Source: a virus
Strand: one strand, 5' to 3'
IMG/VR virus record: IMGVR_UViG_3300049995_000050
Coordinates: 1-38,042 of that record
Length of the DNA stretch: 38,042 bases
Shown here: positions 6,193 through 36,315 of the stretch, in pieces
Numbering within the stretch: position 1 is the stretch's first letter
Layout of the letters: every line of letters begins with the position of its first letter
The notes under the pieces: generated by a model
What the model was told of the DNA's origin: nothing
Databases searched by the model: none
What the model saw: only the letters and a program-made list of their open reading frames with translations
Program-made: the position numbers and the translations under genes

Positions 6193-6539
6193 TAGATCCA
6201 CAATTAACAGAGCAGACGACAACTGCAGGCCTAAGAATATTGGAGCTATCCGCGGGCGGGATATTCGCTGTGATATTGATCGACAAGGTCCTCGGCTGGA
6301 CAGTAAAGCTAAAGGGTAGAAACGGGAACGGGAAAAACATTCCCAGGGTTCCCTGCCTTGAACACAGGCCGTGGATTCAACACGACCTGAAGCAGGACAA
6401 TATCGACAAAAACCTGGAGAAGCTATGCGAAGCGCTCCCGGCTCAGGCCGCCGCCTTAGACAAGCTAGTCGCCCTGGGCGGGGAACAGATAATGGCCCTT
6501 CGAGCCATAGAGAGGAAACTACCCACGAATGGAGATTAA
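6189..6539 (+). CDS. Membrane-anchored coiled-coil protein, lysis cluster
   Basis: A 116-residue protein coupled to the previous gene by ATGA. One transmembrane helix covers about residues 19-36 (ELSAGGIFAVILIDKVLGW), followed by a basic linker and a helical region (KNLEKLCEALPAQAAALDKLV) to the end. N-in topology with a long soluble helix would suit an inner-membrane spanin partner; a holin-like or unrelated membrane protein cannot be excluded. It overlaps the methyltransferase gene by 11 bases. Confidence 0.55.
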   Translation: MIDPQLTEQTTTAGLRILELSAGGIFAVILIDKVLGWTVKLKGRNGNGKNIPRVPCLEHRPWIQHDLKQDNIDKNLEKLCEALPAQAAALDKLVALGGEQIMALRAIERKLPTNGD

Positions 6540-7863
6540 GCGGGTCCCGATCGGCCAGGTCGACAATTGGGAGAAAAACCCGAGGTCAATCCGGGCTAAG
6601 GACTACGATCGGCTAAAGAAACAGATCCAGCGCCTCGGCGTCTATAAGCCGATGATCGCCTATAAAGAAAACGGGCGATTCATTGTGCTGGGCGGGAATA
6701 TGCGGCTGCGGGCCCTAAAAGAGATCGGGGCAAAAGAGGTCGACCTTTCTGTTATCACGCCGAAAACGGAAGCCGAGAAAATTGAATTCGCCCTGAGCGA
6801 TAACGACCGGGCCGGGGAATACGATGACCAGGCCCTGGCCGAGCTAATATTCCAAAACAAAGATGCCTTCGAAACGGACCTTTACAAAATAGACCTGGGC
6901 CGCCAGATCCCGATCGATCAGGTCCTTGACCATTTCGGCCCGACGCAATTTGAGGCGACGGAGGAGGACGCGATTCCGCGGCCCCAGGCAAAAACTGACA
7001 TAAAGACCGGGGACCTTTTCAAACTCGGGGACCACCGGCTCCTGTGCGGCGATGCCACGGATGGGGAGGCCTACAGCCGGGTCCTCGAGGGCAAGCCCGC
7101 GGACTTGGTATTTACGGATCCTCTCTACAACGTCGGGTATATAGGGAAGGGAGCCCGCAAGGGACGCAAGGAGGCCTTCGATTTGATTCTGAACGATGCC
7201 CAAGCCGGCGAGAAATTCGTTCAATTTTCAGAGACAATATTCGGTCTTTTCCGGGACAATCTGAAGCCGGGCGGGGCTTTTTACATTTGCTCGGGATTTT
7301 CGAGCTTCCCAACTTTTGTCTACGCGATAAAGAAAAACGGCCTGATTTTTTCAACCCCGATAATCTGGATTAAGAACCAGGCCACCTATAGCTATCTTGA
7401 TTATCAACACAAACACGAAACGATCATCCGGGGCAAGCGGGGCCGCAAGGCCGGGCAGCCCATACTTTACGGCTGGAACAAAGGCCGCCATTATTTCCGG
7501 GACCTGACCAACGAATGCGACGTCTGGGAGATCCAGAAGCGGAGCGGCCAGACGATGGCCCATCCGACACAGAAGCCTCTGGCCCTGATTCAACGGGCCA
7601 TAAGAAATAGCACCAAGCCGGGCGAAACGGTCCTTGATCCATTCCTGGGGTCCGGGTCGACGATAATCGCCGCGGACCGGGAGGGCCGGAAGGCGGCGGG
7701 AATAGAGCTAGATCCGCAATATATCGAGGTTTCGATTCGCCGATATGCGGCCCAGGGCAAGCAAACAGAGGAGGAAATCCGGGCTACCAGGGAGCGCCAG
7801 GCCCCAGCTAAGCGGGCCGCTTTACGCCGCGAGCCGAAGCCCCGGGAGGCGGAGGCCGGATGA
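6529..7863 (+). CDS. ParB-like / DNA methyltransferase fusion
   Basis: A 444-residue protein. Residues 1-100 form a ParB/Srx-like domain (IGQVDNWEKNPR, then FIVLGGNMRLRALKEIG). Residues about 160-410 form an N6-adenine/N4-cytosine methyltransferase, with catalytic motif IV as DPLY (197-200) and the SAM-binding FLGSGS (372-377), in the beta-class order. Motif IV is normally DPPY; Leu replaces the second Pro. The C-terminal 30 residues are basic and low-complexity. Such fusions are common in phages near terminase genes, probably protecting phage DNA from restriction. It overlaps the next gene as ATGA. Confidence 0.85.
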   Translation: MEIKRVPIGQVDNWEKNPRSIRAKDYDRLKKQIQRLGVYKPMIAYKENGRFIVLGGNMRLRALKEIGAKEVDLSVITPKTEAEKIEFALSDNDRAGEYDDQALAELIFQNKDAFETDLYKIDLGRQIPIDQVLDHFGPTQFEATEEDAIPRPQAKTDIKTGDLFKLGDHRLLCGDATDGEAYSRVLEGKPADLVFTDPLYNVGYIGKGARKGRKEAFDLILNDAQAGEKFVQFSETIFGLFRDNLKPGGAFYICSGFSSFPTFVYAIKKNGLIFSTPIIWIKNQATYSYLDYQHKHETIIRGKRGRKAGQPILYGWNKGRHYFRDLTNECDVWEIQKRSGQTMAHPTQKPLALIQRAIRNSTKPGETVLDPFLGSGSTIIAADREGRKAAGIELDPQYIEVSIRRYAAQGKQTEEEIRATRERQAPAKRAALRREPKPREAEAG

Positions 7864-8837
7864 GAAACCTGGCAGAGGATATCCTCGAGGAGGTCGAATT
7901 CAAGGCCCCGGAGGCTGCCGGCCAGGACGCCTGGGCCGAATTGCCGGCGACAAAGATCGAAGCGGCCCTCGAGATCCTCAACCCGAAATCTAACGCCAAC
8001 GCCGGACGCCGGGCCTGCCTTTCCTTTTCGGGAGGCAGCGACAGCCTGGTCGCCCTGGACCTAGCGCACAAGGCCGGGCTCCGGCCTGTAGTAATATGGG
8101 TCGATACCGGGATGGAATACCCGGACACGGAGGCCTTTGTTTTCAGGACCGCTGTCGACAAATACTGCCTCGATCTTCGAGTCGCCCGACACGAATTAAC
8201 CCCGCTAGGGCAATGGCAAAAGACAGGCTGGCCTTTTCTAGGGAAGCTGGCGGCCCGACGCTGGATGCAGCTGAACCAGGACGCCGGATTCAAGATCAAC
8301 GTAAGCGAATGCTGCCGAGCCCGGAAAATACGGCCGGCCCGGGCGATGGCCAGAAACGCCGGATGTGCGCTGCAGATAACCGGCCAGCGCGGCTCAACGG
8401 ACGACCTGATCCGCAGCCTTCGGGCTCATCAGGATGGCCCGGTCCACTTCCAGGTCGAAAGCCGCCTCTGGATTGTAAACCCTATAACCGGATGGACCGA
8501 CGCTGATGTCCGGGCCTATATAACCGCCTATGGCCTCGAGGAACACCCAGCCAAGGCCCGGGGAGCGGCGACGATCGGCTGCGTTTTCTGCGGCGGCGGG
8601 AGCCAATACACCAACAGCGGATTCCGAGTCCTACGGAAAACCTGGCCCGAAGCCTGGAAACAATTCGTCGTTGATTGGCGCGGCGGCTACATAACCCTGG
8701 CCCTGAAATACGGAGCCAACTTAGAAAATACCATCCAGGCCGTCACCGAAGCAGGCGGCCTCGAGGCCCTCGCCCGGACCCGGCCCTGGATTTTTGACTA
8801 CACCCGAAGGACTCCGATCAATGGCTATAAAAAATAA
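7860..8837 (+). CDS. PAPS-reductase/DndC-like PP-loop protein
   Basis: A 325-residue protein with the PP-loop ATP-pyrophosphatase motif SFSGGSDS (55-62) and VDTGMEYP (81-88), typical of phosphoadenosine-phosphosulfate reductase-family proteins. A Cys pair at 151-152 and CVFC at 241-244 are spaced like the [4Fe-4S] ligands of APS reductases and DndC-like proteins. Phage members sit near methyltransferases and terminases and are suspected in nucleic-acid sulfur or base modification, but their substrates are mostly unknown. It is coupled to the methyltransferase by ATGA and overlaps the small terminase gene by 17 bases. Confidence 0.8.
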   Translation: MRNLAEDILEEVEFKAPEAAGQDAWAELPATKIEAALEILNPKSNANAGRRACLSFSGGSDSLVALDLAHKAGLRPVVIWVDTGMEYPDTEAFVFRTAVDKYCLDLRVARHELTPLGQWQKTGWPFLGKLAARRWMQLNQDAGFKINVSECCRARKIRPARAMARNAGCALQITGQRGSTDDLIRSLRAHQDGPVHFQVESRLWIVNPITGWTDADVRAYITAYGLEEHPAKARGAATIGCVFCGGGSQYTNSGFRVLRKTWPEAWKQFVVDWRGGYITLALKYGANLENTIQAVTEAGGLEALARTRPWIFDYTRRTPINGYKK

Positions 8838-14617: not shown

Positions 14618-14630
14618 AGGCAGGACAAAG

Positions 14631-15701
14631 ATGAAAAGCAGAATCTTCAATCTCGATTGGGACAAATTCAACGACCGGGACGCCGAGCAAAGGAAACAGC
14701 TGCGGGGAGCCCTGCAGTATTTCCTGGCATTGCCCGATCTTTTTCCGCCTGCAGCCCTCTCCAGCTGCCAGGAATTTTTGAGCGACCGAAAGCAGATCCG
14801 GGAAGCGGTCGCCAAGATTCAGGAATTCACGACTACCGGAGACTTCCCGGCCTCGATCCTCCCGATCATCGAAAAATTCCACATCCTCACGACCTACGAC
14901 AACGGGTACGAGCAGATTTTTGACGCCCGCGATTTCAGCGGGAGCGGGAGGGACGGTTTCACGGTCTACGACGTCCAGAGCGGCCTTACCTTCGAGCGGA
15001 AAGACCCCGGCGAAAAGATCCACGTCTACCCGATGTCGGGGCACAAAGAGCATTGCTATTTTGATTTCTACGGCGGGGCCCTCGGCTGGCATCGCCAGCT
15101 TTTCGACGACAAGGACTGGTGGACGATCGAGGACAACGCGATCCAATTTCGGAACAAGGCCTATTCGGCCAGGGCCGCGGTTTTCTATGCCTTGATCGAG
15201 GCGGTCAAGAACGCCAAGAGCGCCTGCATTTCCCTCGCTGATCAGAACTGCGACGGATGCGATGAGGCGGCCCGAGCGATGGCCGCGGCGCTGAACCAGG
15301 CGGCCCAAACGATCGCCCTGAACTGCCAAAACAAGGGCTATGGCGATATCGCCAACGCGACATTTGTTATACTCACCCCGATCCAGATGCGCGGCCTGGT
15401 CCGGCAAGCCCTAGCCGTCAACCTCCAGGCTTTCGTCGGCAGCGAGCGGCTGATCGATTTCAAATTCCAGCAGATCACGAGCCTGATGCTGACCAGCGCG
15501 ACGGACATATTCGTCGCCCTCCCCAAATACAAGCTCAAGGCAGGTTACCGGATGGACCTGACCCTTTTCTCGGACTTCGACATCCTGAGCTACACGGACA
15601 CCCAGGCGGGCTGGATGAGATTCGGCGGCTGCATCGGAGACACCGATCAGATCGAGTGCATCGACGGCACAATCCCGAGCGCTGTCAGCGGACGCCAATA
15701 A
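14631..15701 (+). CDS. Major capsid protein (HK97-fold, inferred)
   Basis: A 356-residue protein. ATG at 14631 is chosen because it follows aggacaaag and the decoration gene stop. It has an N-terminal helical arm, a central P-domain-like region and an A-domain-like end (NATFVILTPIQMRGLVRQAL, then MDLTLFSDFDILS). Sequence identity is low to phages I know, so the assignment rests mainly on position, size and the adjoining decoration gene. Several Cys (CISLADQNCDGC) are unusual for a capsid protein. A strong terminator follows. Confidence 0.8.
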   Translation: MKSRIFNLDWDKFNDRDAEQRKQLRGALQYFLALPDLFPPAALSSCQEFLSDRKQIREAVAKIQEFTTTGDFPASILPIIEKFHILTTYDNGYEQIFDARDFSGSGRDGFTVYDVQSGLTFERKDPGEKIHVYPMSGHKEHCYFDFYGGALGWHRQLFDDKDWWTIEDNAIQFRNKAYSARAAVFYALIEAVKNAKSACISLADQNCDGCDEAARAMAAALNQAAQTIALNCQNKGYGDIANATFVILTPIQMRGLVRQALAVNLQAFVGSERLIDFKFQQITSLMLTSATDIFVALPKYKLKAGYRMDLTLFSDFDILSYTDTQAGWMRFGGCIGDTDQIECIDGTIPSAVSGRQ

Positions 15702-15736: not shown

Positions 15737-15766
15737 GGGGGGGGCCGCAAGGCCCTCCCTATTTTC
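15737..15766 (+). terminator. Intrinsic terminator after major capsid gene
   Basis: A run of eight G and CC (15737-15746), a GCAA tetraloop (15747-15750) and ggccctccct (15751-15760) form a stem of about nine pairs with one G-T wobble, followed by attttct. This is a classic rho-independent terminator. It separates the head genes from the carbohydrate cassette and may reduce, rather than stop, downstream transcription. Confidence 0.85.
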
Positions 15767-15776
15767 TAAAGGCACG

Positions 15777-15790
15777 GGAGGAAGGCGATT
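15777..15790 (+). promoter_or_regulatory. Strong ribosome site before an ATT codon
   Basis: GGAGG at 15777-15781 lies six bases before ATT at 15788-15790, which is in frame with the DUF115-like gene. The first in-frame ATG, at 15818, has no purine-rich site before it. The spacing suggests initiation at ATT, a rare start known mainly from infC and pcnB of Escherichia coli. Confidence 0.45.
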
Positions 15791-15817
15791 ATCCCGCGGC
15801 GACTCACAAGAATTGAT

Positions 15818-16753
15818 ATGCGCGGCCCAGCATACCGGGAAGCTCGGATCCGGCAACGCCTGGCCGCAATAACCGGAGAAGGGGCCTGGGCTCTTCCACG
15901 CGGAAAGAAGCGGCCAATTACAGACATCCTCCAGAACGGGGCCTGGGCCGGACAACAGGCCTTTCTTCTCGGCGGCGGCGATAGTCTCCGCGGTTTTGAT
16001 TTTGAGCGCCTCCGCGGCCAGCGGACGATCGCCGTGAACGTGGCCTATCTAGTCGCGCCTTTCGCGGACCTAATGTTTTCGATGGATTATAGCTTTTACA
16101 GAAAACTCCGAACCAACGGATTCGGGGAATTAGCCCTCCGGAAATTTCAGGAATTCCACGGCGTCCGCTGCTGGCTGGAGCTAGACAACCACGACTACCC
16201 GGCCCCGATTTATTACGTCCGCGGACTTCTTCAGAACAAAGGGCTCCCGACTAAATTTGAACAGGGATTCTGGACCGGAGCCAATAGCGGATTCGGGGCC
16301 CTGATGATGGCCGTCTGCCTAAAGGCAAACCCGATCAACCTTCTTGGCTATGATTTCAAACACGGACCTGGCGGGAGGGACCATTTTCACAATCTTTATA
16401 AAGGCAAGCTTTCAGCCCAACAGTTATCCCGATTCAGAAAGCCATTCGAGATGATGGCGGGCCCTTTGGCCGAAAAGGGAATTCAGGTCTACAACCTAAA
16501 CCCGGACAGCGGGCTCCGCTGTTTCCCATTTAAAACCATAGAGGAGGCCCTCGATGGGCAGACTAACAACGCGCCAGCTGCCGAGCCGGAGGCCCCAGCC
16601 GCCATCCCGGACCGCATCCTGGCCGGCCAGGGGGGCGCTTTACGCGCCGAATCAGCCGGGCCGGGGCCCGGGCCAGGGTCCGGAGGACCCGAGCCCGGTC
16701 CTAACGGCAGCCCTGCCAGCCATAGCGCGAGCAGCCAAGAGCCTGGGCCTTAA
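15818..16753 (+). CDS. DUF115-like glycan-related protein
   Basis: Residues 45-120 follow the DUF115/sialyltransferase-like pattern: AFLLGGGDSLRGFDFERL, then RTIAVNVAYLV and the D of FSMDYSFYRKL. Further on, FWTGANSGFGALMMA and INLLGYDFKHG are shared with that fold. Members take part in sugar transfer or glycan biosynthesis, for example flagellin glycosylation; the substrate here is unknown. From about residue 245 the tail is Pro/Gly/Ala-rich and overlaps the next gene out of frame. ATG 15818 is the conservative start; ATT 15788 would add ten residues and has a better ribosome site. First gene of the glycan cassette. Confidence 0.7.
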   Translation: MRGPAYREARIRQRLAAITGEGAWALPRGKKRPITDILQNGAWAGQQAFLLGGGDSLRGFDFERLRGQRTIAVNVAYLVAPFADLMFSMDYSFYRKLRTNGFGELALRKFQEFHGVRCWLELDNHDYPAPIYYVRGLLQNKGLPTKFEQGFWTGANSGFGALMMAVCLKANPINLLGYDFKHGPGGRDHFHNLYKGKLSAQQLSRFRKPFEMMAGPLAEKGIQVYNLNPDSGLRCFPFKTIEEALDGQTNNAPAAEPEAPAAIPDRILAGQGGALRAESAGPGPGPGSGGPEPGPNGSPASHSASSQEPGP

Positions 16754-16889
16754 TTTTGATCCCCGGCTTTGCCCGAAATGCGGGTCTCCCCGCTTTTTAA
16801 AGAAAGCGCCGTGCTGGATGAGGCGGAGGGGATTTAAGCAAGCGGCCCGCTGCATCCGCTGCGGATTTCAGGAAGGAGTGAACCTATGA
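16554..16889 (+). CDS. Zinc-ribbon protein overlapping the DUF115-like gene
   Basis: A 111-residue protein. The last 40 residues carry CPKCGSPRF and CIRCGFQ, two CxxC knuckles of a zinc ribbon. The ATG has GGAGG six bases upstream (16543-16547), a good site even though it lies inside the upstream gene. The first 200 bases overlap that gene in another frame and encode Arg/Pro/Ser-rich residues. The stop overlaps the cupin start as ATGA. Function unknown; it may bind nucleic acid or partner the cassette enzymes. Confidence 0.6.
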   Translation: MGRLTTRQLPSRRPQPPSRTASWPARGALYAPNQPGRGPGQGPEDPSPVLTAALPAIARAAKSLGLNFDPRLCPKCGSPRFLKKAPCWMRRRGFKQAARCIRCGFQEGVNL

Positions 16890-17233
16890 AAGACACACAA
16901 GGGAAAATATGGGGAGAAACAGCAACCCTTCTGGAAACGCCTTTTTTTTCGATTCATATCCTGGACATAAAGGCCGGGGGATTCTGCAGCGAACACCGAC
17001 ACGCAGCCAAATATAACGACTTCCTGGTGATTTCGGGACGCCTCGAGATAACCATATTCCGGGAGGACGGGATCGAGGACAAGACTACCCTGGGCCCCGA
17101 AGACCGGACGGAGATTGAACCCGGAGTCTGGCATAAATTCCGGGCCCTTGAAGACACCCGCTGCTTGGAGATTTACCGGGTCGAGCTACGCAACGAGGAC
17201 ATCGACCGCCGCAGCCACGGGGGCAAGGAATGA
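16886..17233 (+). CDS. Small cupin-domain protein
   Basis: A 115-residue single-domain cupin: GGFCSEHRHAAKYNDFLVISGRLEITI contains the first motif (H-x-H plus downstream residues), and EIEPGVWHKFRA the second, with His in the metal site. Cupins in sugar clusters are often isomerases, epimerases or sugar-binding proteins, for example phosphomannose-isomerase-like or WxcM-like. Ribosome site aaggag is good. Placed between a DUF115-like gene and glycosyltransferases, which suggests nucleotide-sugar handling. Confidence 0.8.
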   Translation: MKDTQGKIWGETATLLETPFFSIHILDIKAGGFCSEHRHAAKYNDFLVISGRLEITIFREDGIEDKTTLGPEDRTEIEPGVWHKFRALEDTRCLEIYRVELRNEDIDRRSHGGKE

Positions 17234-17928
17234 ACGCTGAAGGCCAGCCGGAGATCCTCGGGGCTGAATTGAATAACGGGCACGGTCGGCCTTTTTTGAT
17301 TGTCAGCTACTACACGGTCAACACCGGCTACGAGAAGGAAATCGATCACCTACGGGCCAGCTGTCAAGCTTTTCAGTTAGATTATTTTTTTGAGGGAATC
17401 AAGAGCCTGGGATCCTGGCAGCTAAACATCCATTATAAACCCGCCTTTTTGCTAGCCGCCCTGACCAGGTTTGAAAAACCGATCGTTTGGATTGACAGCG
17501 ATGCAGTCATAAAGCAATACCCGGCCCTCTTCGAAAGCCTAGCCAAGCGAGACAATATAGACCTGGCCGTTCACTATTTCCGGGACCGAGAGTTACTGAC
17601 AGGAACCCTATATATCCCATTTTCAACCGCCGCGATTGGACTCCTGCAGGCCTGGAGGGGATACGACGGGAGCCGCCTTAAAGACAAAGAACAACGGACC
17701 CTCCAGGACCTCCTGGCCAGCCGCCCCGGCTACCGGGTCGTTAAACTACCGCCGGAATACACCAAAATATTTGACCTGATGAGGAACAACGGGGGCCCGG
17801 CAGTTATAGAACATCACCAGGCCAGCCGGAAATTTAGGAGACAAGTCAGCGGGGACCCGGATCCGGAGCGGATAACGACGGCCCTGGTGCGGGCTAGGAT
17901 AAAACAGATGACCAGGCGGAGGAGATGA
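17230..17928 (+). CDS. Glycosyltransferase-like protein (GT-A, DSD motif)
   Basis: A 232-residue protein. FLIVSYYTVNTGYEKEIDHLRASC begins a nucleotide-sugar domain, and IVWIDSDAVIKQYP gives the D-x-D motif used for metal-nucleotide binding by GT-A enzymes. Later segments (TLYIPFSTAAIGLLQAW, then DLLASRPG) fit sugar transferases of the nucleotide-diphospho-sugar transferase group. The C-terminus is highly basic. ATGA overlaps on both sides place it in the cassette operon. Donor and acceptor unknown. Confidence 0.7.
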   Translation: MNAEGQPEILGAELNNGHGRPFLIVSYYTVNTGYEKEIDHLRASCQAFQLDYFFEGIKSLGSWQLNIHYKPAFLLAALTRFEKPIVWIDSDAVIKQYPALFESLAKRDNIDLAVHYFRDRELLTGTLYIPFSTAAIGLLQAWRGYDGSRLKDKEQRTLQDLLASRPGYRVVKLPPEYTKIFDLMRNNGGPAVIEHHQASRKFRRQVSGDPDPERITTALVRARIKQMTRRRR

Positions 17929-18578
17929 TGCCTTTTATATGGGTCCTAATAGCAACACGGGGACGGCTAAAAAAGTTGGAGGACACCCTGGCCAGCCTTC
18001 CGAGCCAGGCCGACAGCTACCAGATCGAACCCCTAATCGTCTGTGACGGGGATCTAAAAACTTATAAAGCCCTGCCGGAGACGACAACAAAGTTACTAGT
18101 CCCGGAGCATAAAGGGGCGACTTATTGTCGCAATTATGCCCTGGAGCGGACCACCGGCCCGGTTTTATATGCAACCGATGACATCCTGTTTCACCCAGGA
18201 GCCATAAAAAACGCGATAGAGGCGATGGGCGAGAGATTCCCAGCCTGGGACGGGGTCGTCGGTTTCACCCAAAAAGGAAATAGCTTTAACCCAGCGGGGG
18301 TCGCCCTGGTCGGCCAGCGATTCCTTGAGAGATACCCTAACCGACATTTATTTTTTGAAGGTTATTACCATTTCGCCTGCCAGGAGGTCCACCGGGCCGC
18401 CCAGGCGCTAGGGAAATTTTACCTTCATCCCTATGCGGTTTTATACCATCGACATCCGTCAAATAATCCGGCAGAGATAGACCAAACCCACCGGGATGCC
18501 CGGATCCGCCGGGACCAGGACCACGCGCTAATGAAACAGAGGGAGGCCGCCGGGCTAATTTGGGGGATAACCGGATGA
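17925..18578 (+). CDS. Glycosyltransferase family 2-like protein
   Basis: A 217-residue protein starting WVLIATRGRLKKLEDTLASLPSQ, the usual first strand and helix of GT2 enzymes, with GATYCRNYALERTTGPVLYATDDILFHPGAI carrying the D-D metal motif. The catalytic part ends around HRHPSNNP. It would transfer a sugar from a nucleotide donor; substrate unknown. ATG 17925 overlaps the previous stop; ATG 17928 is an alternative. Confidence 0.8.
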   Translation: MMPFIWVLIATRGRLKKLEDTLASLPSQADSYQIEPLIVCDGDLKTYKALPETTTKLLVPEHKGATYCRNYALERTTGPVLYATDDILFHPGAIKNAIEAMGERFPAWDGVVGFTQKGNSFNPAGVALVGQRFLERYPNRHLFFEGYYHFACQEVHRAAQALGKFYLHPYAVLYHRHPSNNPAEIDQTHRDARIRRDQDHALMKQREAAGLIWGITG

Positions 18579-19327
18579 ACCACGTGGTCGAGATTTTTTT
18601 TGATATCGACCGGCCCGGCTATTTTACAACGCCGGAATGGGTCGATTTCCGATTTAAGTTTTTTTATAAATACACCCTCCAGGCGCTAAGAGCCCAGGAC
18701 ATCGGAGATTACCATATTCTGGTCCATTGCGGCCAGCGGAACAGGGCCATAACCGAAAACCTAGCCTGGCCTATGGATGTGGCTTGCGTTTATGATTTCG
18801 GGCGGTTTTTCTATAGCCTTTTAGAAGGACCTTCCGTGATAATAACCAGGATCGATTCGGATGACCTATTCAGGTTTGACGCCTTAAAGACGATCCGGCA
18901 AGCCATAGGGGAAAACCAGCGCCGGCCCAGCTTTGCCTTCAAACACAACCTCTGCTGGGATATGATAAACGGGATAATTTTTGAACACCGGCGAGCTTCG
19001 AGCCCATTTGTAAGCCGGGTCTGGCCGCTAAAAATGATAAAAACCCGCTGGCCGGAATTCTATAAAGCCCATTTCCGGGCTCACGGAGGGGATGGCCTTG
19101 GAGACAGGAGCGCCCTGGCTTTACCGGCTAATCGGGTCCTGGTGACAAAGCACGGCCAGAACACGAACCTTCTGAAGCGCGGGAAAACCCATCCCGTTTT
19201 TACAGAGGCCGAAAGAAAGGCCCTGACCGCATACCACGACGACGGGAAAATATGGCCAGTCGGGAAAAAGATAACAGACCCGCTGGCAATAGGCCTAATT
19301 TTAGCCCATTTCGGAGTGAAGGAATGA
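18575..19327 (+). CDS. Putative rhamnosyltransferase-like glycosyltransferase
   Basis: A 250-residue protein. The layout is like the putative rhamnosyltransferase family: FFYKYTLQALRAQDIGDYHILVHCG, then IITRIDSDDLFRFDALKTI with the D-S-D-D metal motif. The end (TNLLKRGKTHPVFTEAERKAL) is polar. ATG 18575 in the ATGA overlap is preferred over an upstream TTG. It acts with the neighbouring transferases; which sugar is unknown. Confidence 0.65.
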   Translation: MNHVVEIFFDIDRPGYFTTPEWVDFRFKFFYKYTLQALRAQDIGDYHILVHCGQRNRAITENLAWPMDVACVYDFGRFFYSLLEGPSVIITRIDSDDLFRFDALKTIRQAIGENQRRPSFAFKHNLCWDMINGIIFEHRRASSPFVSRVWPLKMIKTRWPEFYKAHFRAHGGDGLGDRSALALPANRVLVTKHGQNTNLLKRGKTHPVFTEAERKALTAYHDDGKIWPVGKKITDPLAIGLILAHFGVKE

Positions 19328-20013
19328 GCCATAAAACAGCCGTTGTCCTTGTGACCCATAGGCGGCTCAGGACCCTAACGCCGATAATAGAAGCCTGGCT
19401 AAAAGAGACGCCGGACGTTTGGCTGGCCGACTGCAGCGCCGAAGGATACAAAAATGAGAAAGAACTAAAAATAAAGCTGGCCAGATTCAAGCCGGATCCG
19501 GGATCGAGATCCCGACACGCCCTGGCGATGATGACAGAGGCCGAGTTTGTAATAAAGGCCGACGACGACCTGGTCCCCCAGCCGGGCATCCTGACCGATT
19601 TCGAGAAGGCCTATGCCGGGACCGGGCTGGCAATCCTGGGGATCATAGGCCGGAGATTCCTGGGCCCGAGCTACTATAAGGACACGCAATTTTTTAAATC
19701 CGCCGCCGTAAAGGCCCCGGTCGAGGTCGACTTTGTTGGCGTCACAACCTACAGTCCGCGGGCATTTTTGGGCTTTGACCTGAAGGGCTGCACAAGCCCG
19801 ATCGAGGACCTGTTCTGGCAGATGAAGGCCTACCCGGGGGCCCGCAAGTGGGTTATCCCAACGACAAAATATATGAACCTGCCAGCAAGCCACGACGAAA
19901 ACTGCCTTTTCCACGACCCGAAGGCCCGGATCGAACGGGAAGAATTCTATGGCCGCTATTTCAGGACCTACTACCAGGAAAGGAAACCGCGATGGACGCC
20001 GAGCAATACATAA
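19324..20013 (+). CDS. Glycosyltransferase-like protein with DDD motif
   Basis: A 229-residue protein. KTAVVLVTHRRLRTLTPIIEAWLKETPDVWLADC is the first alpha/beta unit of a GT-A domain, and EFVIKADDDLVPQPGIL contains the acidic metal motif. YMNLPASHDENCLFHDP lies at the C-terminal part, where catalytic His and Asp residues are common. ATG 19324 overlaps the previous stop as ATGA; an upstream TTG is unlikely. Fourth transferase of the cassette. Confidence 0.7.
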   Translation: MSHKTAVVLVTHRRLRTLTPIIEAWLKETPDVWLADCSAEGYKNEKELKIKLARFKPDPGSRSRHALAMMTEAEFVIKADDDLVPQPGILTDFEKAYAGTGLAILGIIGRRFLGPSYYKDTQFFKSAAVKAPVEVDFVGVTTYSPRAFLGFDLKGCTSPIEDLFWQMKAYPGARKWVIPTTKYMNLPASHDENCLFHDPKARIEREEFYGRYFRTYYQERKPRWTPSNT

Positions 20014-20570
20014 CCGAACATTGGCTTAAAAATCGCGTCTACACGCATCTGGAGTGGGAGAAGCACCAGACCCGCCTGCGGACCTGCGCGGAGGCCCTGC
20101 CGGCGACGCCAGGGGCCCGCTATATAGACGTGGGCTGCGCTTCGGGACATTCAACGGCCATAATGCAGCGATTCAGACCTGGCAATTGGACCGGAGTCGA
20201 TTTCAGCCGGGCGGCCATAGCCGCCGCCTCTAAGTTTTTTCCCGAATGGATAACCTTTTTCTATATCCCGGACCCGGCCCATCTAGGGCAGCTGGGCACG
20301 TTTGACGGAGTCGTCTGCAGCGAAGTCCTGGAACACGCAGGCGATGACCGCGGCCTAGCACAGATATTGCTGTGGATAACCGGACCCGGGGGGACCCTTG
20401 TGGCGACTACGCCGAACCGAAAAATTAACGACCCGGGGCATTTGAGGACCTATACGGAGGCCCAATTCAGAGCCTTATTCGAAAGGCCCGGGGTCGATCG
20501 CCAAATTGAGATACAGACGAAGGGGCCATTTTTTTATTTGATAGTATGGAAGCAGAAGGGGATCGGATGA
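19992..20570 (+). CDS. Class I SAM-dependent methyltransferase
   Basis: A 192-residue protein. ATG 19992 follows aggaaa inside the end of the previous gene. YIDVGCASGHSTAIM is SAM-binding motif I, WTGVDFSRAAIAAA motif II, GTFDGVVCSEVLEHAGD motif IV region, and TLVATTPNRKI motif VI. This is the common small-molecule or sugar methyltransferase plan. In this setting it probably methylates a sugar or a glycan end. It overlaps the next gene as ATGA at 20567. Confidence 0.85.
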   Translation: MDAEQYITEHWLKNRVYTHLEWEKHQTRLRTCAEALPATPGARYIDVGCASGHSTAIMQRFRPGNWTGVDFSRAAIAAASKFFPEWITFFYIPDPAHLGQLGTFDGVVCSEVLEHAGDDRGLAQILLWITGPGGTLVATTPNRKINDPGHLRTYTEAQFRALFERPGVDRQIEIQTKGPFFYLIVWKQKGIG

Positions 20571-21313
20571 CCCTGGTCAAAACCCGCTACGGATTCAACA
20601 TCCTGACAGACCCCGGCGACGCCCTACGCCTAAAAGGCCGCTATTACTACGAAAAGGAAGTCACCGAATTGATGCAGGCCGAGATCCGGCCCGGAGAAAT
20701 AACCGCCGACATAGGGGCGATGATCGGCTACCACACCGTCACAATATCCAGGCTGGCCGGCCCAGGGGGGGCGGTTTACGCATTTGAGCCCAGCCCGACC
20801 AACTACCGGGTCCTCACAGCCAATATCGACGGCAACCGCTGCCTTAATACAAGCCCGATCCTGGGGGCAGCCGGGGCGACAAACGGAGAAGCCTGGCTAT
20901 ATTTGAACCCCGCCAACGCGGGAGACAATACCATATATCCGGTCAAAGACAGGACTAAAATCCAGGTCCGCCAATACGCCCTGGATGCCTATTTTTTCAA
21001 TCCTGAGCGAAGGCCGACCTTTTTAAAGATTGACACCCAGGGCTACGAAATAGAGGTCCTGAAGGGGGCCCGGGAAATTCTGAAAAACCCCGGGCTTCGA
21101 ATGGTGGTCGAATACTACCCTCGAGGCCTGAAAGCCACCGGAGCTGCCGGCCAGGACCTGCTGGACCTAATCCAGAATGCGGGATTTTTTGTCTTCCTAA
21201 TAGACCGCCAGGGCCGCGGCCTCATCCCGATCGAAACGCTAAACCTCGAGAAACTGATAACCCCGGAGAACGGGAAGCACGTCAACCTTTTCTGCGGATT
21301 CCCGACAAAATGA
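20567..21313 (+). CDS. FkbM-family methyltransferase
   Basis: About 248 residues from ATG 20567 (ATGA overlap); an ATG at 20546 would add seven residues. TADIGAMIGYHTVTISRLAG is motif I, VYAFEPSPTNYRVLTANI motif II, and FLKIDTQGYEIEVLKGAREIL is the signature of FkbM methyltransferases. These enzymes O-methylate sugars or polyketides, which agrees with a role in capping or modifying glycan chains made by the neighbours. Confidence 0.88.
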   Translation: MTLVKTRYGFNILTDPGDALRLKGRYYYEKEVTELMQAEIRPGEITADIGAMIGYHTVTISRLAGPGGAVYAFEPSPTNYRVLTANIDGNRCLNTSPILGAAGATNGEAWLYLNPANAGDNTIYPVKDRTKIQVRQYALDAYFFNPERRPTFLKIDTQGYEIEVLKGAREILKNPGLRMVVEYYPRGLKATGAAGQDLLDLIQNAGFFVFLIDRQGRGLIPIETLNLEKLITPENGKHVNLFCGFPTK

Positions 21314-22212
21314 CAACGCCAACGATCGACACCCAAGCCCGATATATAACCGGAGCCGGGAAGGCCCACCTGAACGCCGCCCATTGGGGCCGGGCTTTCA
21401 ATTGCCGGATGTACGGGACCTTTAACCTAGAAACGAGCCTAAATCTAAAATCCCTGCCCCCAGCCCGGACCGACTACGCCGGCTATCATAAATTCTGGCT
21501 GGTAAAGCTAGAAAATGCCTATTACGGATGGGCAATGCGCTGGGAGGACAGCCGGATGCCAGACCACCGGCTGGAGATAATTTCTAAAAAACCCTTCCCA
21601 AATAGTTTAAAAGAGGGGAGAATAAAAATCGAGGTCCTAACCCGGATGACGGATAAAGAGATCAAAGCCTGGGCGGAACAGATACATTTTTTCCAAACTT
21701 TTGAATGGACACCCGCGGAGAATCGGGCAGCGAATTCTGGCCTGATTTGGGAAGCCATAAGCGCCTGCGGAAATTTCCAGAACAAAACCGTCCTTGATAT
21801 AGGGGCAAATTTCGGCTATCACGCCTTCCAGGCCTCGAAGGCCGGGGCCCTAGTAATAGGCTATGACCAAAACAAAAACGTTATTCCTGTGGCCAAGCTG
21901 ATAAACGACCGGATCGAAATGCAGGACGTCACGTTCACGGCCAAACCTTTACCGCCCGAGCCCTTTGATTTTATTTTTTATCTTTCCGTCCATCACCAAT
22001 TTGACCCGCAATATAAACGGCTCGAGCAAACCCTGGCCGACTTAAAGACCAGGGCCCGGGAGGCCGTATTTGTAGAGTTGATTAACCCGCCCTTGAAGGG
22101 CCGGGCGACGGAAGCAGAAATCGACAAAATGATCAGGGGTAAAAAGCTCGTTCATTACGCCCACGAAGTCAGAAAGACCCGAACCCTATATGAGGTCCGG
22201 GGGGAGGCATAA
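21310..22212 (+). CDS. SAM methyltransferase with RibK-like N-terminal domain
   Basis: A 300-residue protein. Residues about 150-290 hold a methyltransferase: TVLDIGANFGYHAFQAS (motif I), GYDQNKNVIPVA (motif II) and FDFIFYLSVHHQF. Residues 1-110 are a separate beta-rich domain: GAGKAHLNAAHWGRAF, then YGTFNLETSL and HRLEIISKKPF, which resembles the CTP-dependent riboflavin kinase (DUF120) barrel. That resemblance is inference. Substrate unknown. It ends the carbohydrate cassette. Confidence 0.7.
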   Translation: MTTPTIDTQARYITGAGKAHLNAAHWGRAFNCRMYGTFNLETSLNLKSLPPARTDYAGYHKFWLVKLENAYYGWAMRWEDSRMPDHRLEIISKKPFPNSLKEGRIKIEVLTRMTDKEIKAWAEQIHFFQTFEWTPAENRAANSGLIWEAISACGNFQNKTVLDIGANFGYHAFQASKAGALVIGYDQNKNVIPVAKLINDRIEMQDVTFTAKPLPPEPFDFIFYLSVHHQFDPQYKRLEQTLADLKTRAREAVFVELINPPLKGRATEAEIDKMIRGKKLVHYAHEVRKTRTLYEVRGEA

Positions 22213-22213
22213 A

Positions 22214-22696
22214 ATGGCTATCGGATGGATTTTAGACCTATCAAGCGCGGAGGATTATTTCGAGGACGAGCGTCTCGAGACAGCCGCCTGGGATGCGGTC
22301 CGGGCCGTCGACAGCGCCGGCATCAAAGTAGAGAAGGCCCTGCTTAATGCATTCAACCGGATATACTATGATTCGGCCTACCCGCTCCTTCCCGACGGCT
22401 ACGCCACGGCCAGCGCGGCCCAACGGGTCGTTTTGAGAAAAGCGCAATGCGAGATGGCCTATTATCTCTGCATCCACCTAGCCGATGAGGACCGCCGCAA
22501 GGGCCTCCAGGCCCAAGGGGTCATAAAAGCCGGGATCGTCCAGGAGGATTACTACGCCGATTGGCTGGCCAAGCTGCCGGTCCCGCCATTTGTAGATTCT
22601 TTGCTGGCGGAATTCAAGGACACACATCACATTTTCGCGGCCAATATAGAGCGGGATGAGAACAGGAGCGCCAAGGAAAAGGTCCACGATTTTTAA
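22214..22696 (+). CDS. Head-tail connector, gp6/DnaT-like
   Basis: About 160 residues from ATG 22214. It is mostly helical with WDAVRAVDSAG, NRIYYDSAYPLLPDGYATASAAQRVVLRKAQCEMAYYLCIHL typical of phage adaptor proteins that assemble under the portal ring (HK97 gp6/DnaT-like SSB domain group). It opens the connector set immediately after the glycan cassette. Confidence 0.75.
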   Translation: MAIGWILDLSSAEDYFEDERLETAAWDAVRAVDSAGIKVEKALLNAFNRIYYDSAYPLLPDGYATASAAQRVVLRKAQCEMAYYLCIHLADEDRRKGLQAQGVIKAGIVQEDYYADWLAKLPVPPFVDSLLAEFKDTHHIFAANIERDENRSAKEKVHDF

Positions 22697-23578
22697 ATGG
22701 CCGACACAGACCGGCTGCCTAAAAGCCTAAAGGAACAGGAAGCGGACTTGCCTCGGCTTTACGCGGCGGCACAAAATATCCTTTTCAAAGAATTGACAAA
22801 AACCGGAGTTTCGGCTTATAAGGAAGCAGAGATCTACAAAAGCCGAAAGCGAATAGACGGGATGATCCAGAAATTGAACAGCCGGGCCGCCTCGTGGGCC
22901 AGAGAGGCCATTGACAAGGCATATAGAAGCCAGCGGGCCGAAACTAGGGCCCAGGCCGAGATCCTCGGATTCAGGCCAAAGAAAAAGCACATCAAGGCAA
23001 CCCTCCTGGCTGCCGTTCGCCGGGCCTATGGCTATCTTGAGAAAGCTAACGCCTCGATGAAGCGAACGGCGGATAACTACTATGGGGCCCTGCGATATGC
23101 GTCCAGCCAGCTGGCTAAAATCCAGGAATTCGACGACGAAGAACACGCCGCATTTTTAGAGGAGACAGCCTCGATCGCGGCCCTAGCCGTAAAGGAGGGC
23201 TGGACCAGGGTCCGCCTTTCAAACCTTCTAGAACACGCCCTGCGGCTGCAGATCGAGGACGGCGACTTTGTAATTATAAACGGGCGGAATTACAATATTG
23301 AAAGCTACGCGGAGATGGTCGCCCGGACGGAGATCCGCAAAGCTCAAACAGAGGCTGCCAAAGAAACCTGTTCCGAATACGGATGCGACCTGGTCGAGTG
23401 GTCGATCCACGCCAACCCCTGCCCGGAATGCGCCGAGCTAGAGGGCCAGGTTTTCAGCCTCAGCGGCCAGGATGTCGAATTTCCGCAATTGGGCGCGGAC
23501 GATGAGCCGCCTCTTCATCCAAATTGCGGCCATAGCCTCCTTGCGACAAGCCGAGAGGCGATGGAGGCCCGGCAATGA
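22697..23578 (+). CDS. Minor capsid protein (Phage_min_cap2-like)
   Basis: A 293-residue protein. The N-terminal two thirds are helical (KRTADNYYGALRYASSQLA). The C-terminal third carries EMVARTEIRKAQTEA, then HANPCPECAELEGQVFSLSG and PPLHPNCGHSLL, the recognised signature of minor capsid/head morphogenesis proteins of the Phage_min_cap2 and SPP1 gp7 groups. The two Cys, HP and Cys-Gly-His may bind metal. In most phages this gene is next to the portal; here it is about 11 kb away. Confidence 0.85.
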   Translation: MADTDRLPKSLKEQEADLPRLYAAAQNILFKELTKTGVSAYKEAEIYKSRKRIDGMIQKLNSRAASWAREAIDKAYRSQRAETRAQAEILGFRPKKKHIKATLLAAVRRAYGYLEKANASMKRTADNYYGALRYASSQLAKIQEFDDEEHAAFLEETASIAALAVKEGWTRVRLSNLLEHALRLQIEDGDFVIINGRNYNIESYAEMVARTEIRKAQTEAAKETCSEYGCDLVEWSIHANPCPECAELEGQVFSLSGQDVEFPQLGADDEPPLHPNCGHSLLATSREAMEARQ

Positions 23579-34953: not shown

Positions 34954-36315
34954 ATGGGAAAATATAGGATCTGCTATAGCGAGCTAGCTAGCCTCGACAT
35001 AGGCCAATTTTTAGACTATGTAGAAGGGGCCTTTAATGTAAACGAGATCCGGACAAACCAGCGCCTCTGCGCGGCAGGAAACGGGGGGGCGGAATACCAG
35101 CGCCTAATCCCCTACGGCGTCTGGGGGCCCAGGCCCGAAGGGATAAAAAGCCAATTTTCACCCTACCAACTGAAGGGGGACAAATTCGACCTTTCTAAAT
35201 TCAACGCCTACTATTGGCCGATCGTAAAGCAGATTTTGATCATAGCCAAAAAATACGGGCTAACCACCTGGTGGGCCCTGGCCGATAACTGCCAATTCCA
35301 CGGCAGCTATAGAAAATATAGCCCCTGGGTGACTAACATAAACGGCGTCACCAGCATATACGACGGGGCGGAGGAGACGAAATATGATGAGGACGGGAAA
35401 CCCTATACGGTCTTGACCGGATCCTACCCGTTTTTCAAAGCCTTCATAGAAAAGAGCCTGGCGGAGCTAGGCCCGCTAGGGGCCAAATGGGCCTGGGGGA
35501 ACGAAATGAATAACCCCGGATTCAGGGCTCTAGCGAATGCCGTAATTTTTCCCTTTCTGAAGGCGGGGAAAATAGAGCCGGAGGACAGCACCTACGGGGC
35601 GACGATGGACGATGCGAGCTATGATCCGGCCACGAAGGAATACACGCACACAGGGGGGGTCCAGGACCTGGTAAAAAAGGATACCGGAGATGATCTGGGC
35701 GAAGCGGCCAAATTAGCCGTTTGGAGGGAGGTCCACGGCTGCGGGGGGAAGGGCTATCCACAGGCCCCCAACCCGCTAGACCAGGCCCTGACCTGGTGGG
35801 CCAGGCTGCACGATAACGGAATACGGATCTGGCTTTCAGACGATGGCGTCTGGGACGGCGACAGCCCCTGTGATTTTGAGACGGAGACGGGACACCGCCG
35901 CCCGAGCGGCCCCCGATGGGCGGAGATGATAAAGCGGGCCCTGACCTACAAAAACCAATTTATATTTGAGCATTTGCCAAAGGGCGGAGATCCGGCCTGC
36001 CAGCAAAAGATTCTGGCCGCTATTTTTAAAGCGCTTTACGCCGTGGAACCGGAGGAAAAATACCACTACGAACCACCGCCGCCAACCGAAACAAGGATCG
36101 TCTGCATAGACAGCCTGCGACGGCCAACGCCCTATTGTCTGCGAACCAAAACGATCCAGGTCCCGGTTGGGAGCCAGGACCCGGGCCTCTGCGATATCCA
36201 CACGTCCCCACCGCCGCCGGAGTCAAAAAGCTGCTTTGACAAATACATCGCGGGCCGTCCGATTTCCAAATGGCAGATCCGGCGATTCATAGCCTGCCTA
36301 TTCGGCAGAGACTAG
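34954..36315 (+). CDS. Glycoside hydrolase-like protein (clan GH-A-like)
   Basis: A 453-residue protein, start preceded by aaggaggagg. Residues 1-345 look like a TIM-barrel hydrolase: WPIVKQILIIAKKYGLTTWWALAD, then GAKWAWGNEMN (WGNE 181-184, candidate acid/base Glu184), NGIRIWLSDDG (289-298) and FIFEHLPKGG (337-345). The 'W-x-N-E' after a strand is typical of clan GH-A enzymes. The C-terminus is Pro/Cys-rich (CIDSLRRPTPYCLR, then CDIH, then CFDKYI), a possible surface-binding module. No signal peptide. It may degrade host capsule or glycan as a virion enzyme. Confidence 0.6.
   Translation: MGKYRICYSELASLDIGQFLDYVEGAFNVNEIRTNQRLCAAGNGGAEYQRLIPYGVWGPRPEGIKSQFSPYQLKGDKFDLSKFNAYYWPIVKQILIIAKKYGLTTWWALADNCQFHGSYRKYSPWVTNINGVTSIYDGAEETKYDEDGKPYTVLTGSYPFFKAFIEKSLAELGPLGAKWAWGNEMNNPGFRALANAVIFPFLKAGKIEPEDSTYGATMDDASYDPATKEYTHTGGVQDLVKKDTGDDLGEAAKLAVWREVHGCGGKGYPQAPNPLDQALTWWARLHDNGIRIWLSDDGVWDGDSPCDFETETGHRRPSGPRWAEMIKRALTYKNQFIFEHLPKGGDPACQQKILAAIFKALYAVEPEEKYHYEPPPPTETRIVCIDSLRRPTPYCLRTKTIQVPVGSQDPGLCDIHTSPPPPESKSCFDKYIAGRPISKWQIRRFIACLFGRD

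Follow-up and report, generated by a model that had tools for sequence, protein, structure and literature searches.

We analyzed the whole 38,042-base IMG/VR virus record IMGVR_UViG_3300049995_000050, referred to here as the window, in which ten plus-strand open reading frames (ORFs), C1 to C10, occupy positions 15818-22212 between the gene for the major capsid protein (MCP), with its hairpin terminator, and a connector gene. An earlier note on this DNA had described a ten-gene carbohydrate cassette at this place, and our analysis confirms it. Our data suggest that the cassette is probably a virion glycosylation system centred on the phage head. By their start positions, the head genes are TerS (8794), TerL (9327), portal (10566), a conserved protein (12979), a decoration protein (14201), and MCP (14622-15701), followed by the hairpin terminator, C1-C10, the connector (approximately 22214), and the minor head gene (22697). 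The features of the locus are as follows.

14622..15701, plus strand: major capsid protein (MCP), bordering the cassette on its left, between the decoration protein and the connector; phrog_24071 (2.7e-20); 46 viral relatives
15737..15760, plus strand: hairpin terminator in the gap between MCP and the cassette; 10-bp stem, GCAA loop, T-rich tail
15818..16753, plus strand: C1, presumed transferase with the Maf-central-domain/GT42-sialyltransferase fold; phrog_4603 (9e-25), predicted structure, invariant residues; first cassette gene in relatives
16554..16889, plus strand: C2, small zinc-ribbon protein (CxxC...CxxC), from sequence and from relatives at the same place
16886..17233, plus strand: C3, small WbuC-like cupin; Cupin_2 (1e-7), WbuC cupin (7e-8, below cut-off)
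17230..17928, plus strand: C4, predicted GT-A glycosyltransferase with an invariant DxD (D89, D91); predicted structure
17925..18578, plus strand: C5, GT2-family glycosyltransferase; PF00535 (7e-5, exactly at the cut-off), relatives
18572..19327, plus strand: C6, rhamnosyltransferase-like protein; PF11316 (0.0017, below cut-off), relatives
19324..20013, plus strand: C7, glycosyltransferase-like protein; DDD motif, conserved in the cassettes of relatives
19992..20570, plus strand: C8, class I S-adenosylmethionine (SAM) methyltransferase; PF13489 (Methyltransf_23, 7e-13)
20567..21313, plus strand: C9, FkbM-family methyltransferase; PF05050 (3e-21) and TIGR01444 (2e-24), above the Pfam and NCBIfam cut-offs
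21310..22212, plus strand: C10, N-terminal domain fused to a SAM methyltransferase; PF08241 (Methyltransf_11, 2e-6), separate N-terminal homologues
22214..22696, plus strand: connector gene, right border of the cassette; a homologue closes the interval in relatives, and the role is assigned from its place
22697..23578, plus strand: minor head protein; phrog_581 (1.6e-29)

C9 belongs to the FkbM family, scoring 86.8 bits against TIGR01444 (cut-off 37.7). No curated Pfam match was found for C1, C4, or C7, nor a PHROG match for C7; C1 and C4 were placed by structure, while the DDD motif of C7, with its relatives and its cassette company, suggests a glycosyltransferase. C2 gave no Pfam match above cut-off and probably starts later than 16554. 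The MCP family phrog_24071 has no named function, the MCP match to Pfam Phage_capsid_4 (0.0038) lies below the cut-off, and the connector gene has no PHROG match of its own. The earlier note had nearly all the genes joined by ATGA overlaps; at most junctions we find such an overlap or another short one (C2/C3, 16886-16889; C3/C4, 17230-17233; C4/C5, 17925-17928; C6/C7, 19324-19327; C8/C9, 20567-20570; C9/C10, 21310-21313). Its description of the set as complete was too strong, since we recognized no sugar-nucleotide synthesis gene in the cassette, nonulosonate synthesis included, and the sugar donors would therefore have to come from the host. The displacement of the minor head gene, also noted earlier, is present; it is a trait of the whole phage group, and the cassette makes up only 6.4 of approximately 10.7 kb. 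The N-terminal approximately 105 residues of C10 (window 21310-21624), which carry a GTFN motif, form a separate gene in loci L015, L017, and L024.

Using MCP as the query, we found 46 viral relatives and 4 loci in genomes; a tblastn search of MCP against cultivated phages gave no match. With identical contigs counted once, these loci contain 15 distinct MCP-to-connector intervals, the window included, and every one of the 15 closed intervals holds a cassette of 3.5-9.3 kb led by a C1 homologue. The zinc-ribbon, cupin, C4, and C5 genes are frequent after C1, while the distal part varies and includes sulfotransferase-like, polysaccharide-deacetylase, GT4, GT9-like, and fibre-like genes. Thus, the first gene is kept and the distal content is exchanged, and the cassette is not a one-off island. 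The position of the slot behind MCP is fixed down to approximately 40% MCP identity. At approximately 33% MCP identity (L046 and L047) a C1 gene was not found, and the product of the gene behind MCP is a long protein that combines methyltransferase domains with domains of glycosyltransferase type. The first gene behind MCP in L042 encodes a single 683-amino-acid protein fusing C1, C4, and a methyltransferase, which ties these three activities together. A terminator-like hairpin lies behind MCP in 15 of 37 loci (0.3 expected from shuffles), so the terminator proposed earlier is real and recurs. Aligned cassette genes of close pairs have ratios of nonsynonymous to synonymous divergence (dN/dS) of 0.05-0.37, indicating purifying selection; a ratio of 3 for a small ORF in cluster 17 rests on a dS of 0.009 and was disregarded. 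A PF05050 profile search of 15 records found nothing, a result of low weight, as C9 relatives turned up in L008, L012, and L072 when the loci were compared locally.

Two further expectations of the earlier note can be read against these intervals. It had called the arrangement unusual; in this phage group, however, a sugar cassette behind MCP is the rule. It had also named, as findings that would speak against a virion role, a cassette placed elsewhere in relatives or a recent bacterial island. Looking across relatives, we found neither: no closed relative has an empty slot, and with a GC content of 0.52-0.57 the cassette matches the genome, so we rejected a recent island. We also rejected the cassette as a recombination hotspot; silent-site divergence between the L021 and L023 cassettes exceeds that of MCP and C1, but TerL and the connector behave likewise.

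Several relatives carry long repetitive proteins in this interval. Collagen-like proteins lie at or near the cassette end in L015 (16922-18262) and L024 (14518-16101; PF01391, 1e-47 in L024) and are possibly head fibres and candidate glycan acceptors. In L021 (18669-20543) and L049 (14231-16009), the protein encoded directly before the connector has many repeats of the 'EGVQVQVSDSP' type and ends in a basic C-terminal tail, and a similar basic tail occurs in L038 (12590-13558).

Genes of this kind could instead modify the host surface, altering lipopolysaccharide or another surface glycan to block superinfection or change serotype, as Gtr clusters do. O-antigen clusters often contain GT2, FkbM, WbuC-like cupin, and GT9-like genes, and domain matches of all four kinds occur in the cassettes. 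Furthermore, the cassette is carried by prophages, and phage D3, which carries a C1 homologue, is known for O-antigen conversion, by other genes. The location of the cassette argues against this reading: downstream of the capsid terminator, it forms part of the late head operon rather than of a lysogeny or moron region, and its slot has stayed with the capsid gene even between deeply diverged relatives. We also found no clear transmembrane segment in the window cassette proteins (maximum 19-residue hydropathy, 1.61), although hydrophobic stretches are present in a few cassette ORFs of relatives. Family scans of the window cassette found no flippase, polymerase, polyprenyl-phosphate glycosyltransferase, or GtrABC-like gene, and the cassette does not have the make-up of a GtrABC cluster (membrane flippase GtrA, polyprenyl-linked GtrB, and membrane Gtr). 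We therefore regard a change of host glycan against superinfection, the other proposal of the earlier note, as unlikely.

The predicted structure of C1 has a predicted local distance difference test score (pLDDT) of 82.5, with low confidence in the tail after approximately residue 250. Its best PDB match is Maf of Magnetospirillum (5mu5; Z 15.9, root-mean-square deviation (rmsd) 3.9, 211 residues), followed by CstI/CstII (Z 11.3, 175-180 residues) and then other sialyltransferases. This structure comparison places C1 in the Maf/GT42 catalytic-domain fold. Because C1 aligns only to residues 247-527 of the 632-residue Maf chain, covering the central domain without the N- and C-terminal domains, we call the fold of the modelled protein Maf-like but do not class the protein as a Maf. 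The earlier note had called C1 DUF115-like; window C1 has no match to Pfam DUF115/PF01973 (Maf) at the curated cut-off, while two relatives (L042 and L051) match it weakly, at approximately 27 bits against a cut-off of 34.6. Among relatives, G52-G54, S56, L57, N74, D179, H189, and H191 are invariant. The nucleotide-binding motifs GxGPSL and SG...IYLxGxD, both GT42 motifs, align with CstII (weakly, E 0.11), and window C1 reads GGGDSL where most relatives read GGGPSL.

C4 is likewise best described by its model (pLDDT 87.7), for which the closest PDB match is the first domain of PBCV-1 A064R (A064R-D1; 2p73, Z 18.1, rmsd 3.0, 183 residues), followed by a bacterial GT6 (Z 15.5) and glycogenin (Z 15.4). 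The model has a GT-A fold with DxD, and D89 and D91 are invariant in 15 sequences. In T4 and TET-bearing phages, DNA is also a substrate of phage glycosyltransferases, and the cassette might accordingly place sugars on hydroxymethylated bases of the phage DNA to escape restriction. One relative's GT2 weakly matches a TET-associated glycosyltransferase (0.0012, below cut-off), and genes for a ParB-DNA methyltransferase and a PAPS-reductase-like protein lie upstream. A place among head genes would be unexpected for such a system, and Tet_JBP gave no match in 18 records, where the control matched nowhere either and base-hydroxymethylases were not searched for. We consider DNA hypermodification highly improbable.

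We found C1 and C4 relatives well outside this phage group. Single-sequence scans of viral contigs with C1 or C6 gave no match, while alignment-based scans with C1 and C4 did. The C1 alignment recovered 307 relatives; we retained the best 80, and 74 of these had usable upstream sequence. This MCP lies directly upstream of C1 in 58 of the 74 loci (among the best 80 of 307), a fraction that is biased upward because the C1 query was derived from MCP-selected loci. Other head genes that precede C1 are a PF05065 capsid gene in L137 and a head-tail adaptor gene in L136 and, judging from gene order, in the relatives of L136. The C4 alignment recovered 71 loci, 43 with C1 nearby, and 26 of these lack this MCP. 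Where this MCP is absent, the neighbours of the C1-C4 pair include a protease-MCP-adaptor-C1 order of another type (L163), a portal gene (L172), and a tail-fibre J gene (L184); an endolysin-like gene lies near the pair in L166. On a 113-kb virus contig, the gene for a 1128-amino-acid protein that matches radical-SAM and glycosyltransferase families overlaps a C1-C4 pair at its start (L160:3172-6558).

The C1 family also occurs in cultivated phages. The family hidden Markov model (phrog_4603) matches D3 orf7 (4e-24), PMG1 gp8 (9e-23), and P1 pmgO (5e-16). D3 and PMG1 have the order MCP-C1-adaptor, with an annotated terminator in PMG1, and Psp6 has the order MCP-C1-X-methyltransferase-connector. 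C1 lies between the head closure and tail terminator genes in PAJU2, and in P1 the homologue pmgO lies in the pmg 'morphogenetic' cluster. Its neighbour pmgP also matches the C1 profile (1e-5; pmgO and pmgP, L143:3950-5136), and pmgQ is a glycosyltransferase; a small cassette like the one described here may therefore be present in P1. In the literature searched, we found no functional study of D3 orf7, PMG1 gp8, or P1 pmgO, nor papers bearing on phage sialyltransferases and capsids.

The acceptor might also be a tail or fibre protein, with the capsid slot being historical. The cassettes of relatives that end with collagen-like (L015 and L024) or repeat fibre-like proteins (L021 and L049) support this possibility, as does the C1 homologue found behind tail-fibre genes in Caulobacter (Ccr) phages and in L184. 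The window cassette holds no such fibre, however, and C1 lies by head genes in most lineages, and we judge a fibre acceptor decidedly unlikely.

The MCP loci found in genomes all lie in metagenome-assembled genomes (MAGs) of Candidatus Aminicenantes (4 of 4). One of these, fen_413, holds two related prophages with the cassette, on contigs of 415 kb and 189 kb and flanked left and right by non-phage genes. The first is an intact-looking prophage of 44.8 kb (G001:C30:344425-389268) whose integrase-like gene adjoins a tRNA-Arg(TCG) gene, and a 48-bp direct repeat of the tRNA end lies 44.8 kb away. This attachment-site repeat points to an Aminicenantes host, and the link between this prophage branch and Aminicenantes is good. 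The closest genome relative of the window (L048) shares 76% MCP identity and lies on a 9-kb binned contig; the window phage probably infects uncultured Aminicenantes. The fen_413 genome carries NeuB and CMP-sugar synthetase genes approximately 2 kb apart on one contig, and a CMP-nonulosonate donor may therefore exist in the host. A 453-amino-acid protein of the window (34954-36315) without a PHROG match has a homologue near the right end of an Aminicenantes prophage. Upstream, window 6529-8837 encodes a ParB-domain/DNA-methyltransferase fusion and then the PAPS-reductase-like gene, adjoining the small terminase gene, and this arrangement recurs in several relatives.

Together, position, co-occurrence, fusion, and fold suggest a protein-glycan pathway acting on the virion. 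The earlier note had proposed that the phage glycosylates its own virion, and it finds indirect support in the slot fixed to approximately 40% MCP identity, the enzyme likeness, and the place of C1 by head genes in unrelated phages; that a virion protein is the acceptor is what we infer. In our best reading, a virion protein would be glycosylated and O-methylated in the cytoplasm, with the host supplying the sugar donors. Transcription of the capsid gene late in infection would mostly stop at the hairpin behind MCP, and read-through would yield less of the ten soluble enzymes. Before the virion assembles or while it does so, C1 would link the initial sugar to an amino-acid side chain of a virion protein in the cytoplasm; the likeliest candidates are the capsid protein and other proteins of the head surface. 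The A064R-like C4, together with C5, C6, and C7, would extend the chain with host sugar nucleotides, and C8, C9, and C10 would methylate it. A constant first gene with a changing distal set might then give the same attachment and different outer sugars in each phage.

Several observations weigh against this pathway. For this phage group, the support is made up entirely of sequences and predicted structures, and a fold does not prove an acceptor. Lipo-oligosaccharide is another product of GT42 enzymes, and the GT-A fold occurs in enzymes with many roles; glycogenin is only 2.7 Z below A064R-D1 as a match to C4, and C1 is without the terminal domains of Maf. The neighbours of C1 are not always head genes, as the homologue follows tail genes in the giant phages of Caulobacter (Ccr) and Brevundimonas and tail-fibre genes in Ccr phages and L184. 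In L170 a DnaB helicase gene lies near the homologue, and in XacN1 it lies near a ribonucleotide reductase gene, an exception to its virion-gene neighbours. Furthermore, NeuB was not found in the two other Aminicenantes MAGs, which are possibly incomplete.

We tentatively extend this reading, as a possibility that we hold with some doubt, to a large phage group, some of it in Aminicenantes, with a capsid-coupled glycosylation island, in which a fixed Maf/GT42-like protein glycosyltransferase beside the capsid gene would work with exchangeable sugar and methyl transferases, much as in flagellin islands. Each phage would thereby carry a capsid glycan of its own, and the genes orf7 of D3 and pmgO of P1 would then encode unrecognized virion glycosyltransferases. 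We found few documented systems of virion glycosylation in tailed phages. The present locus links glycan genes to the capsid gene throughout a wide phage group, and the family of its first gene, C1, is also present in the textbook phages D3 and P1. If true, this reading would give a testable function in laboratory phages to a gene that annotations call a sialyltransferase or 'morphogenetic', and would make the cassette a phage counterpart of flagellin glycosylation islands.

D3, PMG1, and P1 are among the close comparisons: D3 orf7, PMG1 gp8, and P1 pmgO belong to the same family as C1 (phrog_4603) and have a methyltransferase nearby, and D3 and PMG1 share the gene order, with the annotated terminator behind MCP in PMG1. 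They differ in having one or few genes versus ten, annotated only as sialyltransferase or 'morphogenetic'. The maf genes also lie near flagellin genes, and the C1 fold is that of the Maf central domain in the flagellin systems of Campylobacter, Aeromonas, and Magnetospirillum. Unlike those systems, C1 has no Maf N- or C-terminal domain, the cassette has no recognized nonulosonate synthesis genes, and the neighbour is a capsid gene. Maf O-glycosylates flagellin, a self-assembling structural protein (PMC11339370). In chlorovirus PBCV-1, A064R combines two rhamnosyltransferase domains with a methyltransferase and builds the end of the capsid glycan (PMC9614988). The N-glycan machinery of PBCV-1 (A064R and A061L) resembles the cassette in its virus-encoded transferase and methyltransferase sets, mostly predicted to be soluble (PMC9614988), and A064R domain 1 is the best PDB match of C4; however, PBCV-1 is a eukaryotic algal virus with these genes at several genome places, approximately 15% sequence identity, and a different capsid fold. 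These likenesses, drawn from models, suggest that C1 and C4 resemble enzymes that glycosylate self-assembling structural proteins. In mycobacteriophages (Che8 and relatives; Freeman et al. 2023, as told in PMC11256854), glycans are covalently attached to the capsid protein and the glycosyltransferases are phage-encoded; those of Maravista, a Che8 relative, lie near the genome 3' end and not in the head operon. Virion glycosylation is already known in mycobacteriophages (cited in PMC11256854) and chloroviruses, while what is new here is a capsid-adjacent, position-fixed, content-variable, and methyltransferase-rich cassette that has a Maf/GT42-like gene in first place and occurs in phages whose likely host belongs to an uncultured phylum.

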